From contig CASDWY010000010.1 of assembly GCA_949284985.1 (NCBI GenBank), positions 1 through 64,000 on the forward strand: DNA of 64,000 nucleotides. The letters run 5' to 3'. The stretch's first letter is position 1. Every line of letters starts with the position of its first letter. The notes under the pieces are model-generated. The model did not search any database. It was given only the letters and a program-made list of their open reading frames with translations, and had not been told where the DNA came from. Made by a program: the position numbers and the translations under genes. Origin of the DNA: an uncultured bacterium (GTDB lineage Bacteria > Cyanobacteriota > Vampirovibrionia > Gastranaerophilales > Gastranaerophilaceae). This document shows, in pieces, positions 20,902 through 27,799 of this stretch.

Positions 20902-22005
20902 TTAGAGAATTCTTATTCCGCCAAAAAGAAATACTTTGTAAGAAAGCTTACCCTTTTTAGAAAAAGGTCTCTCAACGAGCTTTAAGATAGTAATATTAAA
21001 TAATTTATATTTAATTATCAAAGTCCCATCTTTGTATGAAAAATTTTTACCTGTTAACTTATTAGCAGACTGTATCTCTCCCAAACCTTTATATAATTCA
21101 TCAAAATTATACAAATGCTTAAAGACATTTTCTTTAGTTGCAGCAACAAAATTATATTTTTCATTTTGAATATACATAGGGAAAAATTTAATACCCTTTC
21201 CTCTCTTAACAATTGATTGAGCGATTATAGAAGACAATCCGCCATTAACATGCTCTTCAAATACAATAATAACTTCATTTTTATCAATTATTCTATTTAT
21301 TGATAATTTATCAAAAGGTTTTATTGTATGACAAGAATAAATACTTGGATTCAAAGAAAGCTTAACCAACTTTTTTCTACAATCAACAGCCTCTTTCAGC
21401 ATTCCTCCACTTGAAATAATAGCAATTTTTTCTCCAGATTTAACTTTTGAAATTTTACCAAATTTAACATCATAATCCAAATTAACATGCTTCATATAAG
21501 GACAATCCATTCTTATATAAACCGGTCCGCACATTTCAAAGCTTTCATCCATTAGCTTATAAAATTCACAATCTGTAGGCGCTATATCTACAATAGAGAC
21601 ATTTGGCAATGCGTTCATCAGTGCTATATCTTCTATTGCCCAATGAGAATACCCGGCAATTTTAGGTCCAACAACACCACCATGTATTCCAATTACCTTG
21701 ACATTACAATTATTATAACAAACATCAAGCTTCAATTGTTCAAAGGCACGACAAGTTAAAAACGCCGCCAATCCCAAAACAACAACTGTTTTACCAGATT
21801 GAGCAAGCCCTGCAGCTACACTAATACTATTTGCTTCGGAAATACCTGTGTTTATAAGCCTTGACAATACTTCTTCATCTAAATATTGCTTATGTTCTCC
21901 AAAAAAATAACATTCCCAGACATCCGCAACCAATACATACAAGTTTTTGTCTTCTTTTAATTTTCTGACCAAATACTTAGACACTAATTCAAATTTATCA
22001 CTCAT
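20902..22005 (-). CDS. Transketolase-like protein, C-terminal (pyrimidine-binding) subunit
   Basis: 367 residues. Matches the pyrimidine-binding and C-terminal domains of transketolase: INTGISEANSISVAAGLAQSGKTV (the Glu that activates thiamine diphosphate, about 55), GVVGPKIAGYSHWAIEDIALM and SIVDIAPTD, then a lower-similarity end. It overlaps the N-terminal subunit gene by 8 bases, giving a two-subunit enzyme. Split transketolases of this type in glycan loci move two-carbon units between sugar phosphates or build unusual branched or long-chain sugars; a dedicated role in a surface sugar is therefore plausible but inferred. The last 60 residues are unusual and not assigned. Confidence 0.82.
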   Translation of the reverse strand: MSDKFELVSKYLVRKLKEDKNLYVLVADVWECYFFGEHKQYLDEEVLSRLINTGISEANSISVAAGLAQSGKTVVVLGLAAFLTCRAFEQLKLDVCYNNCNVKVIGIHGGVVGPKIAGYSHWAIEDIALMNALPNVSIVDIAPTDCEFYKLMDESFEMCGPVYIRMDCPYMKHVNLDYDVKFGKISKVKSGEKIAIISSGGMLKEAVDCRKKLVKLSLNPSIYSCHTIKPFDKLSINRIIDKNEVIIVFEEHVNGGLSSIIAQSIVKRGKGIKFFPMYIQNEKYNFVAATKENVFKHLYNFDELYKGLGEIQSANKLTGKNFSYKDGTLIIKYKLFNITILKLVERPFSKKGKLSYKVFLFGGIRIL

Positions 22006-22816
22006 TTTTTATTGTCTCCAATGCCTTTTTAAACTCTTCCTTTGTCAGACTAGAATGATGGAACATAGCAAAAGACCTATCATTCTGCAAATACTCCAAC
22101 CCATGCCCTTTAACGGTATCTGCTATAATACACTTTGGTTTTGACGTTTTTTTGCTTAACAATTCCGCTAACTGAGATACATCATGCCCATTGCACAAGT
22201 ATGCTTCAAATCCAAAAGCACTTAGTTTCTTTTCTAAATCTGTTGCTGTGTCTATAATATTTTTTGTATAATTGTCTATTTGCATATAATTTCTATCTAT
22301 AATCAATGTAAAATTCAATAAATTATGCTGCGCTACAAACAAAAATGCTTCCCAAAGGGCTCCCTCTTGCAGCTCGCCATCTCCGCATATGCAATAAACT
22401 TTTCTATCCTTATTACCTAACGCAAGACCTGCACCAACTCCGGCACCATGCCCCAATGAACCAGATGCCACATCTACTGCCATTATTTTTTCCGAACCTA
22501 CCAAATTATAAATATCATGCCCCAAAAAACCATCATCACAACAAAATGTTTGCAATAAAGATTTATCAAGCAATCCCAACTCTGCTAAAACACATATTTG
22601 TGCTAACCGACAATGCTCCTTAGATATAATTACTTTATCTCTATTAATATCATTCAAATTTGATAAACTTATATTAGAATCCTTATAAACAGCATACAAT
22701 ATTTCCACCGAAGACAATGAAGAGGTTATATGTCCAGGATTCATAATTGCTGCTGTTTCTAATATATTTATTTTTATGTTTTTTATTTGTCTATTTGTTT
22801 CTTCACTTATTAACAA
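21998..22816 (-). CDS. Transketolase-like protein, N-terminal (TPP-binding) subunit
   Basis: 272 residues from TTG 22816; GGAG at 22827-22824 is 7 nt upstream. Holds the thiamine diphosphate-binding domain: GHITSSLSSVEILYAVY near 28, GSLGHGAGVGAGLAL near 118 and CICGDGELQEGALWEAF near 143 (GDG...N-type motif, with RNYMQIDN following). Together with the partner encoded directly downstream it would form a heteromeric transketolase. The usual whole-length transketolase is not in the window, so a housekeeping role in the pentose pathway cannot be excluded, but its position among glycan genes suggests precursor synthesis. Confidence 0.85.
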   Translation of the reverse strand: MLISEETNRQIKNIKINILETAAIMNPGHITSSLSSVEILYAVYKDSNISLSNLNDINRDKVIISKEHCRLAQICVLAELGLLDKSLLQTFCCDDGFLGHDIYNLVGSEKIMAVDVASGSLGHGAGVGAGLALGNKDRKVYCICGDGELQEGALWEAFLFVAQHNLLNFTLIIDRNYMQIDNYTKNIIDTATDLEKKLSAFGFEAYLCNGHDVSQLAELLSKKTSKPKCIIADTVKGHGLEYLQNDRSFAMFHHSSLTKEEFKKALETIKNE

Positions 22817-22849: not shown

Positions 22850-23827
22850 TTATTCTACTTGTTCTCCACAAGGCAAACCATATTGAATGCTATCAAAATG
22901 ACAATAGTGGCAAAACTCAGAATATTGCTTGCTATAAAATTTAATAAACTTCTCAGTTAAATCTTTTGACGATATCTCCTCTCTTAAATTAATCAATTCG
23001 TCTTTTATACCTTCTGTTAACTCCAAATTTCTGTGCATATACATAGAACAAACACACTGGGAGAAAATTCCCTCACAAATAATATTGCAATACAAACCAA
23101 AACATCTGGAATATATTTTTTTCAATTTTTCGCTGTCTTGAACATCCTTAAACAATTGAGGCATTGTCTGCCAATTATTTGCATCTAATTTTTCTTGTAT
23201 ATAACTAATCTTAATTTTGTTATCAACTAAAAGTTTCTTTATCGTGTTATATTTAACAGTAACATTATTTTTTATATTTTTAACCTGTCTGTAATCCGAT
23301 AATTGCACTGCAAATTTTTTATTTTTCATTACCTTTAGCAACTCATCTGATGGTAAAATTGTACAATTTGTGCACATAAAAACATAATGAATTTGTCTTT
23401 TACTTAATGCGTATTCTACCATTTTATACAAGTCATTTACCAACAAAGGTTCTCCGCCAACAAAACCAAAAATATTAATATAGTCAACTGCTTCCAGCAT
23501 CTTATCCAAATTTTTTTTAAATTGCTCAAAAGAAATCGGTTTTGCATGCGTCTGAGTAGTAAAATAAGGAATAAACGAATTACAATTTTTGCAATTTAAA
23601 GTACACCTTGTAGTAACTGCATATTGACAAACAGGTATAATTGGTTTTCTTTTTATCAAATAGCGTAGCTTTAAAAAGTTATAAAATATTTTTTGTCCAC
23701 TTTTAATTTTTTTTAAAAACTTAATCAATGGAAAATCAAATAACTCAGAAATCCAACACTCATTAGAGGTTCTCCATATATGTTTCAGATTATACTGCTT
23801 ATAATTTTTCCACTCTAATTTGTTCAT
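22850..23827 (-). CDS. Radical SAM enzyme A (left arm of switchable pair)
   Basis: 325 residues. The radical SAM cluster motif is Cys75-x3-Cys79-x2-Cys82 (RCTLNCKNC), with FGFVGGEPLL near 120 as the SAM-binding GGE motif. The C-terminal part has additional Cys-rich segments (CFGLYCNIIC, QCVCS, FCHYCHF) that could hold auxiliary Fe-S clusters as in SPASM-type enzymes. A paralogue with the same layout is encoded divergently at 24002. Substrate unknown: glycan-locus radical SAM proteins and peptide-modifying ones both look like this. The 174-bp region between the two starts carries the inverted repeats and a promoter that, as read here, points at this gene. Confidence 0.82.
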   Translation of the reverse strand: MNKLEWKNYKQYNLKHIWRTSNECWISELFDFPLIKFLKKIKSGQKIFYNFLKLRYLIKRKPIIPVCQYAVTTRCTLNCKNCNSFIPYFTTQTHAKPISFEQFKKNLDKMLEAVDYINIFGFVGGEPLLVNDLYKMVEYALSKRQIHYVFMCTNCTILPSDELLKVMKNKKFAVQLSDYRQVKNIKNNVTVKYNTIKKLLVDNKIKISYIQEKLDANNWQTMPQLFKDVQDSEKLKKIYSRCFGLYCNIICEGIFSQCVCSMYMHRNLELTEGIKDELINLREEISSKDLTEKFIKFYSKQYSEFCHYCHFDSIQYGLPCGEQVE

Positions 23828-23848
23828 AAAATATCCTTAACCCAAAGC

Positions 23849-23982
23849 ACAATTTTTAGAAAATGTGCTAATAATTATCATTCTTAAATCCTACTATAAA
23901 TATATCAGTTTGTAAAATAATATCAAGGTCAAATTCCTTATAAATATTTGTTTTTAATCTTGTTACATTTTCTAAAAATTGT
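23849..23982. repeat. Invertible promoter element candidate (18-bp perfect inverted repeats)
   Basis: The 18-mer ACAATTTTTAGAAAATGT at 23849-23866 recurs exactly, inverted, at 23965-23982. The enclosed segment is 98 bp. Identity stops abruptly at both edges of each repeat. Each repeat is itself roughly symmetrical, as expected for a tyrosine-recombinase site. The element lies between the starts of two divergent radical SAM paralogues and 1.0 kb from a short tyrosine recombinase gene. An alternative explanation is a shared 5' segment left from inverted duplication of the genes. Confidence 0.65.
23899..23926 (-). promoter_or_regulatory. Promoter inside the putative invertible segment, facing radical SAM gene A
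   Basis: On the minus strand TTGATA (23926-23921) and TATATT (23904-23899) are 16 bp apart; each matches consensus at five of six bases. No comparable plus-strand promoter was found in the segment. In this orientation gene A would be on and gene B off. Confidence 0.5.
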
Positions 23983-24001
23983 TAAAGGCAAAGGATTAAA
24001 A

Positions 24002-24991
24002 ATGAATAAAAAAAACTGGGATAACTATAAAAATAACAATCTAAAATTAGTTTGGAGAAATGCTACGATAAGCTGGTGCAATACCTTACCATTTAAGCTG
24101 AAACTAATAAACTTTTTAAAACGAAACTTTTCCCCTGAAAAAATTCATTTTACATTACACAAACTAAGATTTTTCTTAACCAGAAAAGCCATAATGCCGA
24201 CATGTGAATACGTTCTTACTACAAGATGTACTATGAATTGTAAACACTGTAACACATTCATTCCTTATTTTACTCCTCAAACACACTCTAAAGCTGTATC
24301 TTTTGAGCAATTTAAAAAAGATTTGGATACACTTTTAAAAGCAGTTGATTACATTGACTATTTTGGTTTTGTTGGTGGTGAACCTTTAATAGTAAAAGAC
24401 TTAGACAAAATGATTAAGTATGCCTGCTCCAAAAGAAAGCTACACCACATTTTTTTAGCAACAAATTGTACAATTTTACCCTCCAAAAATCTTCTTAAGG
24501 CAATGAAAAATAAAAAATTTGCAGTACAATTATCAGATTATAGAAATGTAGAATTTAAAACAAACATAACCGTAAAATATAACGAATGGAAACAATTATT
24601 ACAAGAAAATAACATATTATTCTCACACCCGGAAGAAGATAGAGATGCAATGTGTTTTCAATCTATGCCTGAATTATATCAAGACAAACAAGACCCTAAT
24701 CAATTAAAAAAAATATTTGATAAATGCTGGGGCCAGTATTGCAATATGCTCTGTGATGGGATACTAACTCAATGTGCTTTATCTGTTTATATATCAAGAA
24801 ATCTTCCGCTAACAGAGGACATAAAAAAAGAAATTATAAATATCAGAGCATCAAAATCTGCTAAACAATTAACAAAAGACCTTATTGACTTTTATGCAAA
24901 ACCATATTCCGCATTTTGTCACTATTGTCACATGGAAAACATTCAATACGGTCTACCGGTAGGGGAGCAGGCTGAATATATTACAAAATAA
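24002..24991 (+). CDS. Radical SAM enzyme B (right arm of switchable pair)
   Basis: 329 residues from ATG 24002, preceded by AAAGGA; the frame is open upstream through the right inverted repeat, but that longer reading (from 23948) has no support. Radical SAM motif Cys76-x3-Cys80-x2-Cys83 (RCTMNCKHC) and FGFVGGEPL. The C-terminal Cys pattern (CWGQYCNMLC, FCHYCHM) mirrors enzyme A, and the two proteins can be aligned end to end, from the N-terminal NW/EW..YK..NLK..WR segment to the final YGLPxGEQ. Divergence is higher in the C-terminal half, so substrate preference may differ. It would be silent in the present orientation of the upstream element if the promoter call is right. Confidence 0.82.
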   Translation: MNKKNWDNYKNNNLKLVWRNATISWCNTLPFKLKLINFLKRNFSPEKIHFTLHKLRFFLTRKAIMPTCEYVLTTRCTMNCKHCNTFIPYFTPQTHSKAVSFEQFKKDLDTLLKAVDYIDYFGFVGGEPLIVKDLDKMIKYACSKRKLHHIFLATNCTILPSKNLLKAMKNKKFAVQLSDYRNVEFKTNITVKYNEWKQLLQENNILFSHPEEDRDAMCFQSMPELYQDKQDPNQLKKIFDKCWGQYCNMLCDGILTQCALSVYISRNLPLTEDIKKEIINIRASKSAKQLTKDLIDFYAKPYSAFCHYCHMENIQYGLPVGEQAEYITK

Positions 24992-25523
24992 AACGCAAAT
25001 AACTCTTTTCTATTTGAGTTTGCTCTATTCCTATATATCTCAAGGTAACCCATGGCGATGTATGATTAAATATTTTTTGAAGCATTACAATATCCTTAAA
25101 CCTTTTATAATAATGATAGCCAAAAGTCTTCCTTAAACTATGTGTACCTATATTCTCATTAAGCCCAGCTAAACAACATGCTTTGTTAATAATTTTATAC
25201 GCTTCAAATCTATTCATTCTCTCCCCAGAAGAAGATTTAAATAATGGTTCATTAAGATTTAATCGCTTTGTATATTTATTTATTAAAGGTTTTAACTTGG
25301 AATTTAAAGGAATTTTTTTAAATTTTCCTGTTTTCTTTTCCTTAAGCTGAATATATTTTTTATTCTTAACATCTTTAACATCAAGTGCCAATATATCAGA
25401 AATTCTAAGTCCACAATTAATACCTATAACAAAAAACATAAAATCTCTAATATTTTGTTTAAACAATATACTTTCAACTTTTTTAATATCATTAAACTTT
25501 CTAATTGGTTCAACTACTGCCAT
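24981..25523 (-). CDS. Short tyrosine recombinase (FimB-sized, candidate DNA invertase)
   Basis: 180 residues from ATG 25523 with AAGGAAG upstream; a longer reading to 25577 lacks support. All catalytic residues of the tyrosine recombinase domain are present: Arg40 (GLRISDIL), Lys64, His128 and Arg131 (HSLRKTFG), His154 (FNHTS) and nucleophile Tyr163 (TLRYIG). There is almost no N-terminal core-binding domain, as in fimbrial phase-switch invertases of the FimB/FimE type rather than phage integrases. It overlaps the convergent radical SAM gene B by 11 bases. No excisionase, phage gene or tRNA attachment site adjoins it. It is the obvious candidate to act on the repeats at 23849-23982. Confidence 0.88.
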   Translation of the reverse strand: MAVVEPIRKFNDIKKVESILFKQNIRDFMFFVIGINCGLRISDILALDVKDVKNKKYIQLKEKKTGKFKKIPLNSKLKPLINKYTKRLNLNEPLFKSSSGERMNRFEAYKIINKACCLAGLNENIGTHSLRKTFGYHYYKRFKDIVMLQKIFNHTSPWVTLRYIGIEQTQIEKSYLRFIL

Positions 25524-25601
25524 AATTAACTTCCTTTCTTCTATTAAGTACAAATTTAAAAAAGAAAAAAGTGACAAATAGTTTACACCTAACTAACTTC
25601 T

Positions 25602-25842: not shown

Positions 25843-26313
25843 CTACCCTTCTACCTTAGCTTCACGCTCTTTTGTTTCTTCCTTTGTATACCCTATAGAA
25901 TCTTTTTCAGGAGTCCAGCCAATATCTTCTTTAACCTCATGAATAGGATCAGCAAGGAGAAGTTCCTGTGCATCATTATACTCTTTCACAGAAAGCTCAA
26001 AGTTATCTTCTTGAGCAACATTTTCATCCAAATTGACTTCTGCAGATGATGCTTCTGCTTCTACTATAAGTTCATTATCTACCATTGATTTAATATAAGC
26101 ATTTAATCTTTCTTCTATATCTGCAGGAGCACCTGGTATAACTTTTAATTTTGCCAAAATATCTTCTACACTTGCACCATTAACTATATTTTCATATACT
26201 GCTGTACCCAGTAAATTCATACCATAATAAATTCCTGTCTCGCTATTAATAATAATTGCTATGCCATCTGTAACATCAGCAAACATTTTTTCGTCATTTA
26301 ATACATAATTCAT
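25843..26313 (-). CDS. PqqD-family protein with long acidic tail
   Basis: 156 residues from ATG 26313 with AAAGGAGA upstream. Residues about 8-85 form a PqqD-like winged-helix domain (DVTDGIAIIINSETGIYYGMN, then GTAVYENI and a DIEERLNAYI helix). PqqD domains bind leader peptides in several modified-peptide pathways, and standalone ones accompany HprK-related kinases. The remaining 70 residues are acidic and contain LLLADPIHEV and IGWTPEKD, which could be a docking tail or even a substrate. The domain is homologous to the C-terminal part of the kinase encoded upstream, whose gene overlaps by 20 bases. No separate precursor-peptide gene was found. Function beyond peptide or partner binding is inference. 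Confidence 0.72.
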   Translation of the reverse strand: MNYVLNDEKMFADVTDGIAIIINSETGIYYGMNLLGTAVYENIVNGASVEDILAKLKVIPGAPADIEERLNAYIKSMVDNELIVEAEASSAEVNLDENVAQEDNFELSVKEYNDAQELLLADPIHEVKEDIGWTPEKDSIGYTKEETKEREAKVEG

Positions 26314-27799
26314 TTTTATTCTCCTTTTTTGGACTTATTAATTCTATATTTTTTTCTTGATTATATTCAATAAAAGACATTTTACCATTGCATTCTTCTA
26401 TAAATTCAAAATTTATATTAGGCTTTTGCGTTAAATCCTCTTTTGCATCTAAAACTTCTGTATCTTTTAATGCGCTATCAAAAATTTCTATATCTCTTTC
26501 TGCATTCGGTATATCTTTTAATGCTTCTATTATTAATTTTTTGGCAACTCCTCTTTTAAGATTTTCGTATACATTTGTAGCAAACTTATTCATAACATAT
26601 ATGGTATAAGTTTCTCTATTTATTATACTTGCAATATCATAAGTTACATCAACTAAAATCTTACCTTCAGCAAATTCTTTTCTTTCTCTTTTATCAAAAT
26701 TTTCTAAAAATTCTCTTAAAAATACTGTATTTCGTTCAATATCACTACACAAATTTAACTTATAAAAATCAAAATCTTTTACCATATTATAAAGTTTTTG
26801 TATAGTATCTCTATCATTCAAATCTCTTGTTTGCGAAAGTGTTGATTGAATAAGCTGCACAATAGCACGACCTTTTTCACAAGGCTCAATACTTGGATCC
26901 TTATCAGAAACAATTTCCGGAAAAAGACAAAACTTAATCGGATACTTGTATTTAAATCTATCATGAAAATTCGAAATATTTACAACATACTTATCTTTTC
27001 TTGCATTATTTGAAACAAAACGAGTACCATCAAGCTCATCATATAATTCATTGTACATCCTTGGCGACAAAGTAATTATAGAATAAATCGGATAAGAATA
27101 AACACCGCTTTTTTCTTTTTCCAATATCAAATAATCATCTGAAACATACTCAAATCCCCTAATCATAGACAAAACAGCCAAAGTTGACTTTCCTCTTTGT
27201 CCTCTTGCACAAAATAATGCGCCAATGTTGTTCCAGCCTATTACTGCTCCATGCACAATTCCGGAAACCGGAGTTTTTACTATGTCATTAAGCAATTGTA
27301 TAAATATATGTCCCTGTTTAATAAACTCCTCAGGTTCAAGATTATTTACACCATAATAATACTTATGCTCATTTGGACAAAATGCAAGAAAAACTTTTTG
27401 ATTGAGATTAAAATCAAGCTGTGCTTTACACTTTGAATATTCATCGTTATATATTTGCAAATCTAATTGTTTAGTTTTTGTCAAAACCTGTTCTAATCTC
27501 ACCCTATGGTTTATTTTTGGGTTAAATGTAGGATCAACCTTTTGCTCTAACGCAGCTATATCCTCTTCTTTCCAAATAACTAAAGTATCATCAAAATTGT
27601 TTACACTATCTTTCAGCACATATGTTAATTGTTTCTCAACATGTGGCTTAAATTCCTCACTATAAGATATCAAACGAACAACTTTTACCCCTAAATCCAA
27701 ATACTTTATCCAAACAGGTTCACCCAATGTTTTTATATACTCATCCAAATTATTAAAATATGATTTAATTTGCTGCGATGTTGTATTTTTTATCTGCAT
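26294..27799 (-). CDS. HprK-related kinase with C-terminal PqqD-like domain
   Basis: 501 residues. The central part (about 180-345) resembles HPr kinase/phosphorylase: P-loop ARGQRGKST at 198-206 and SDDYLILE at 220-227 for metal binding. Residues about 1-175 form an unassigned N-terminal region. About 385-460 is a PqqD-like domain (DVTYDIASIINRETYTIYVMN) homologous to the next gene product. HprK-like kinases of this class occur with PqqD and nucleotidyltransferase genes, in lasso-peptide loci (where one phosphorylates the peptide) and in polysaccharide loci with unknown target. The protein probably phosphorylates a peptide, protein or small hydroxyl substrate. Cytoplasmic; no membrane helices. 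It follows the nucleotidyltransferase gene by 11 bp. Confidence 0.75.
   Translation of the reverse strand: MQIKNTTSQQIKSYFNNLDEYIKTLGEPVWIKYLDLGVKVVRLISYSEEFKPHVEKQLTYVLKDSVNNFDDTLVIWKEEDIAALEQKVDPTFNPKINHRVRLEQVLTKTKQLDLQIYNDEYSKCKAQLDFNLNQKVFLAFCPNEHKYYYGVNNLEPEEFIKQGHIFIQLLNDIVKTPVSGIVHGAVIGWNNIGALFCARGQRGKSTLAVLSMIRGFEYVSDDYLILEKEKSGVYSYPIYSIITLSPRMYNELYDELDGTRFVSNNARKDKYVVNISNFHDRFKYKYPIKFCLFPEIVSDKDPSIEPCEKGRAIVQLIQSTLSQTRDLNDRDTIQKLYNMVKDFDFYKLNLCSDIERNTVFLREFLENFDKRERKEFAEGKILVDVTYDIASIINRETYTIYVMNKFATNVYENLKRGVAKKLIIEALKDIPNAERDIEIFDSALKDTEVLDAKEDLTQKPNINFEFIEECNGKMSFIEYNQEKNIELISPKKENKNELCIK

Follow-up and report, generated by a model that had tools for sequence, protein, structure and literature searches.

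The 98-bp segment between the divergent radical SAM (rSAM) genes A and B of the window (the whole 64-kb stretch of DNA analysed here, from a genome of 1.78 Mb assembled as 35 contigs) is very probably an invertible promoter that chooses between rSAM-A–tkN–tkC on one side and rSAM-B on the other (Table 1). Relatives of the two rSAM genes are found in Candidatus Gastranaerophilales MAGs; the Gastranaerophilales are gut bacteria related to the cyanobacteria, non-photosynthetic and for the most part not in culture. An invertible promoter had already been proposed in a first-pass annotation of this DNA, and the proposal is now strengthened on three counts: the form of the sites recurs beside homologous recombinases, the sites are unique in their genome, and three homologous elements occur in both orientations.

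Table 1. Features of the proposed promoter switch (positions in the window).
Feature	Position	Strand	Basis and remarks
tkC, transketolase pyrimidine-binding and C-terminal half	20902..22005	-	same likely operon as gene A and tkN
tkN, transketolase N-terminal half	21998..22816	-	likely operon with gene A; homologue across the G104 switch
Gene A, radical SAM, C-terminal Cys motifs	22850..23827	-	Pfam PF04055, 1.7e-9; alignment; first gene of the likely operon
Left recombination site (putative)	23849..23866	-	core of 18 bp, ACATTTTCTAAAAATTGT in minus-strand reading; matches the right site exactly in inverted orientation; ACA-N12-TGT form
Invertible segment	23867..23964	.	98 bp; inversion inferred from homologous elements
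Promoter TTGATA-16-TATATT, extended -10 TG	23899..23926	-	best match of the stretch; points at gene A as assembled
Right recombination site (putative)	23965..23982	+	same 18-bp core in inverted orientation; ACA-N12-TGT form
Gene B, radical SAM paralogue	24002..24991	+	Pfam PF04055, 7e-11; 59% identical to gene A
Tyrosine recombinase, catalytic domain only, presumed invertase	24981..25523	-	180 aa; Phage_integrase family, E 1e-23

The 18-bp inverted repeat is exact and its arms lie 98 bp apart, in agreement with the first description of it, coordinates included. The limits of the repeat fall exactly at ACA and TGT, and the left site with its flanks (23846-23869) forms a 24-bp palindrome-like sequence, AGCACATTTTCTAAAAATTGTGCT. 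When the whole genome is searched, zero-mismatch matches to the pattern ACATTTTNNNNAAAWTGT (ACATTTT-N4-AAAWTGT) occur within the 1.78 Mb only at the left and right sites, so that the neighbouring recombinase would have one obvious target pair. The spacing of 98 bp is shared with an element of the genome G077, in which a site pair precedes an rSAM gene (L064:1871-2024). An inverted repeat of at least 18 bp (spacer 40-700 bp) appears in 2 of 200 dinucleotide shuffles of the 64-kb window and in none of 20,000 for the intergenic region (174 bp); a chance origin of the repeat is rejected as unlikely on these shuffle tests.

Three promoter-like matches are present in the intergenic region, all on the minus strand and all directed towards gene A. 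Since three were found where 2.1 are expected, the promoter call is based on the quality of the match and not on the count: the good minus-strand promoter noted earlier (TTGATA-16-TATATT) is the best-scoring match there and carries an extended -10 element. Gene B has no forward promoter in the assembled orientation. Comparison of the interior of homologous segments yields only short common pieces, partly of extended -10 form (e.g. TTTGTGTTATTAT), and no reliable common regulator site.

The recombinase gene ends (3′) approximately 1.0 kb from the right repeat. Its reading frame is listed as 24981-25577 and the start was set by homology at 25523. The protein had been described as a short tyrosine recombinase, which the Phage_integrase match bears out, and the expected catalytic residues are all present: R (GLRISD), K, HxxR (HSLR), H and Y (LRYIG). 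NCBIfam invertase models match it weakly, with 44.7 bits for FimB (NF007371) and 30.4 bits for FimE (NF007370), far below the respective cut-offs of 222 and 221, and it is not a member of either family. The XerA, XerC and XerD models score 80.4, 63.2 and 63.8 bits, far under their cut-offs and with only the C-terminal parts of the models matched; the protein has neither the score nor the N-terminal core-binding domain that membership of these families takes. The recombinase family is present in multiple copies across the lineage, and its co-occurrence with the sites suggests that the neighbouring recombinase is the cognate enzyme of the window sites.

Across the Gastranaerophilales, 61 distinct recombinase homologues (at least 50% identity) were surveyed together with 700 bp of flanking sequence either side. 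Of these 61 loci, 25 have an exact inverted repeat of at least 15 bp with a spacing of 60-750 bp, as against 3 of 123 control segments; in both the repeat and the site surveys, however, the controls contained copies of the elements from the window and from G104, and their counts are superseded by the whole-sequence count over 761 kb given below. The arms share an 18-bp form, ACA-N12-TGT, the two halves of which are imperfectly symmetrical. When up to two mismatches are allowed, inverted pairs of it lie within 700 bp of 18 of the 61 recombinase homologues and at none of 61 shuffled loci. Over 761 kb of loci in which no recombinase was detected, such pairs occur only in the window itself and in L209, L212 and L147, of which L209 and L212 are switches too. 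The remaining 43 of the 61 loci have no such pair within 700 bp; the sites can thus be remote, degenerate or absent. In five recombinase contigs (L073, L075, L079, L089 and L093) the sequence breaks off at, or slightly beyond, a site immediately 3′ of the recombinase gene, as is expected if coexisting orientations break assemblies. Invertible sites may systematically fragment such MAG assemblies. At L086, L088, L097, L137 and L139 a second recombinase-like gene (~35% identical) lies across the invertible segment, and the promoter there may switch this second gene.

Inversion itself is seen at homologous elements. In G104, a MAG from the same bacterial family, an identical 173-bp block of repeat, segment and repeat is found in two contigs. 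In contig C16 the start of a transketolase-half gene is followed by the block and then by an rSAM gene 54% identical to gene A; in contig C35 the start of the same rSAM gene is followed by the block and then by the transketolase pair. Both orientations of the block have therefore been assembled between the same two flanks in one MAG. Each of the two contigs begins 59 bp before the 18-bp repeat (59 + 18 = 77), and 77 is a common assembler k-mer length; the 77 bp would fit a k=77 assembly graph with the repeat borders as true branch points. Recombinase genes are present elsewhere in the G104 genome.

Two further comparisons are between genomes. At orthologous loci of G258 and G364 the flanks are 96% and 90% identical, and the 100-bp segment, bounded by exact ACATTTACTAACAAATGT arms, runs the opposite way (85% identity when one copy is flipped, 53% as they stand). 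In G258 a near-consensus promoter in this segment (TTGACA-17-TATACT) faces a transketolase pair; in G364 it faces an acetolactate-synthase-like gene. A recombinase 57% identical to that of the window lies 2.7 kb away at the G258 locus. This locus (L242:5543-11131, G258:C39) brings together two acetolactate-synthase-like genes, a split transketolase and a sugar epimerase beside the invertible promoter. At the recombinase-linked loci of G142 and G053 the 300-bp flanks are 100% identical and the 247-bp segment between them is 100% identical only when flipped; the recombinase of this locus is ~61% identical to that of the window. A second G053 contig was sought via its site, and just one contig was found. 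The element on contig C9 of the window's own genome is likewise inverted relative to G053. This locus (L126; G000:C9:2500-6712) holds the genome's second recombinase, 61% identical to the first, with its own repeat-bounded segment.

For the window segment one orientation has been seen. Nothing similar to its flipped form was found in other genomes of the genus, nor was a second genome of the species, and a viral-contig scan gave no match to the sequence inside the segment. A switch that was once active and is now locked, with a site or the recombinase impaired and gene A and its operon permanently on, would be compatible with this single orientation and with the recombinase frames at the rSAM loci of G077 and G186, which look shifted in the assemblies through assembly error or decay. 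However, the recombinase of the window is intact, catalytic residues included, its 18-bp cores do not differ from each other, and the frame of gene B is unbroken and still 59% identical to gene A; we consider a locked switch unlikely.

The core is an imperfect palindrome that lies upstream of both genes, and it could for this reason be read as a transcription-factor operator for the two divergent genes, the recombinase being a bystander. It is very improbable that this is so: the same form recurs beside one family of recombinase genes, homologous elements invert exactly between such sites, contigs end there, and the pattern is exact nowhere else in the genome. The operator reading is rejected because it leaves the inversion unexplained. 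The first-pass annotation had allowed that the repeats could instead be relics of inverted gene duplication. It is extremely improbable that they are merely a piece of 5′ untranslated region conserved since the duplication behind A and B, with no inversion taking place. A and B are indeed divergent paralogues, and the regions upstream of them are nearly symmetrical. The boundaries of identity, however, are sharp (18/18 in the repeats versus 43% immediately to either side of their borders and 68% in coding sequence) and coincide with the site of the recombinase family, and the elements of G104 and G258/G364 sit, and flip, between unrelated genes, in G104 between an rSAM and a transketolase gene.

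The invertible promoter would be expected to work as follows. Bound to the two 18-bp ACA-N12-TGT sites, the recombinase would bring them together and turn the intervening DNA around. As assembled, the promoter would drive rSAM-A–tkN–tkC, leaving rSAM-B off; after inversion it would start ~63 bp before rSAM-B, which would be switched on as the operon is silenced. Transcription is presumed to follow orientation, and the behaviour of the homologous elements suggests that the window segment, too, flips in vivo. The outcome would be two cell types in one population.

The two divergent genes had been recognized as radical SAM paralogues, and this holds: PF04055 scores above cut-off in both. Each carries a radical SAM domain with a CxxxCxxC motif, whose cysteines C76, C80 and C83 are invariant (12 homologues). 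For gene B, an AlphaFold model (pLDDT 82.9) has its best structural match in SpeY (PDB 7wzx; E 5e-11, TM-score 0.57-0.59), the twitch radical SAM dehydrogenase that acts in spectinomycin biosynthesis. The likeness is one of fold in the gene B model; the identity is ~18%, and gene B lies in a glycosyltransferase cluster. On the minus-strand side tkN and tkC, which together make up a split transketolase, follow gene A on its strand with a gap of 33 bp after gene A and an overlap between the two halves, and the three genes therefore probably form one operon. The switch had been described as a choice between two versions of one enzyme, which is right for the two rSAM paralogues and incomplete for the minus-strand side with its transketolase pair. 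Judged from the sequence, the choice would lie between rSAM-A with the transketolase-like pair (ON as assembled) and rSAM-B. Operons of rSAM and transketolase genes recur in G079 and G130, and in G232 and G126 the transketolase halves adjoin nucleotide-sugar-like genes of rhamnose type (translations judged by eye). The genes around the switch are glycosyltransferase-like, DUF4422, PqqD-like, HprK-like and NTP_transf_5, and the same ones recur at homologous loci. The switched genes may encode alternative enzymes that tailor a surface glycan or another sugar product.

Invertible promoters and short tyrosine invertases are already well known. The fimS element of Escherichia coli type 1 fimbriae, with FimB and FimE, resembles the window in its short, catalytic-domain-only tyrosine recombinase and in a promoter between short inverted repeats; it turns fimbriae on or off, whereas the promoter of the window chooses between two divergent enzyme units, and the site here is the 18-bp ACA-N12-TGT. 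Surveys of gut bacteria of the PhaseFinder type (Bacteroidales, Clostridia) have described invertons whose invertible promoters lie near surface-related genes and are accompanied by nearby invertases of the tyrosine type (PMC11892184, PMC8748976). The window differs in its lineage, the Gastranaerophilales, and in an element that serves two genes in opposite directions. With Hin/fljBA of Salmonella the window shares the either/or between two alternative products. Hin belongs to the serine recombinases, and its system arrives at the alternative product by way of a repressor; here the recombinase is of the tyrosine type and the promoter itself turns between divergent genes. The new feature is the two-way choice between alternative enzyme sets. 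A literature search, in which subscription journals were sparsely represented, returned no relevant report that connects phase variation or invertons with Gastranaerophilales or Melainabacteria; nor was any description of an invertible promoter for such radical SAM genes apparent within that coverage, in line with the earlier remark that no radical SAM pair had been described under this kind of control.

It seems moderately likely that the window is one instance of a lineage-wide system, in which one family of short tyrosine recombinases, with several copies per genome, serves glycan loci whose two-way promoters select one or another tailoring enzyme (radical SAM dehydrogenase-like, transketolase-like halves or acetolactate-synthase-like), so that each flip would swap sugar chemistry and not turn one gene on or off. 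With alternative enzymes as its outputs, the switch predicts that a single clone makes two products of different chemistry; bet-hedging of this kind may have a part in phage and host recognition. With the recombinase family, the 18-bp site and the flipped elements in hand, surface variation in Gastranaerophilales becomes readable from existing metagenomes, and the switch offers a handle on the roles of the radical SAM and split transketolase enzymes.

Related genes occur with and without the switch. Several homologous rSAM genes, e.g. in G252 (71% identical to gene B), stand in ordinary operons without repeats or recombinase; the switch is thus no fixed partner of the enzyme. Homologous loci with the same repeats and no recombinase, named at the outset as a finding that would speak against a switch, did not turn up: the rSAM-homologue loci without recombinase in G252, G345, G175, G284 and G233 have no such sites. 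No repeats were found upstream of the tkN homologues in G232, G126, G314, G160 and G089, and transketolase pairs are accordingly often not switched. In G186 the recombinase is directly upstream of an rSAM gene. In G077 an rSAM gene lies on each side of the recombinase, which is itself within 26-bp inverted sites and in this respect recalls Hin, a recombinase within its own repeat-bounded segment. At this locus (L064:3730-6376, G077:C13) the flanking rSAM genes are divergent with their first 18 coding bases identical, and the recombinase frame is shifted at an A run.

Beside the glycan genes of the window, the C-terminal part of the HprK-like protein (26294-27799) resembles the PqqD-like protein that follows it (25843-26313), with ~35% identity across homologous loci. 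The HprK-like/PqqD-like pair, which is conserved beside glycan genes, may hold two PqqD-like domains.
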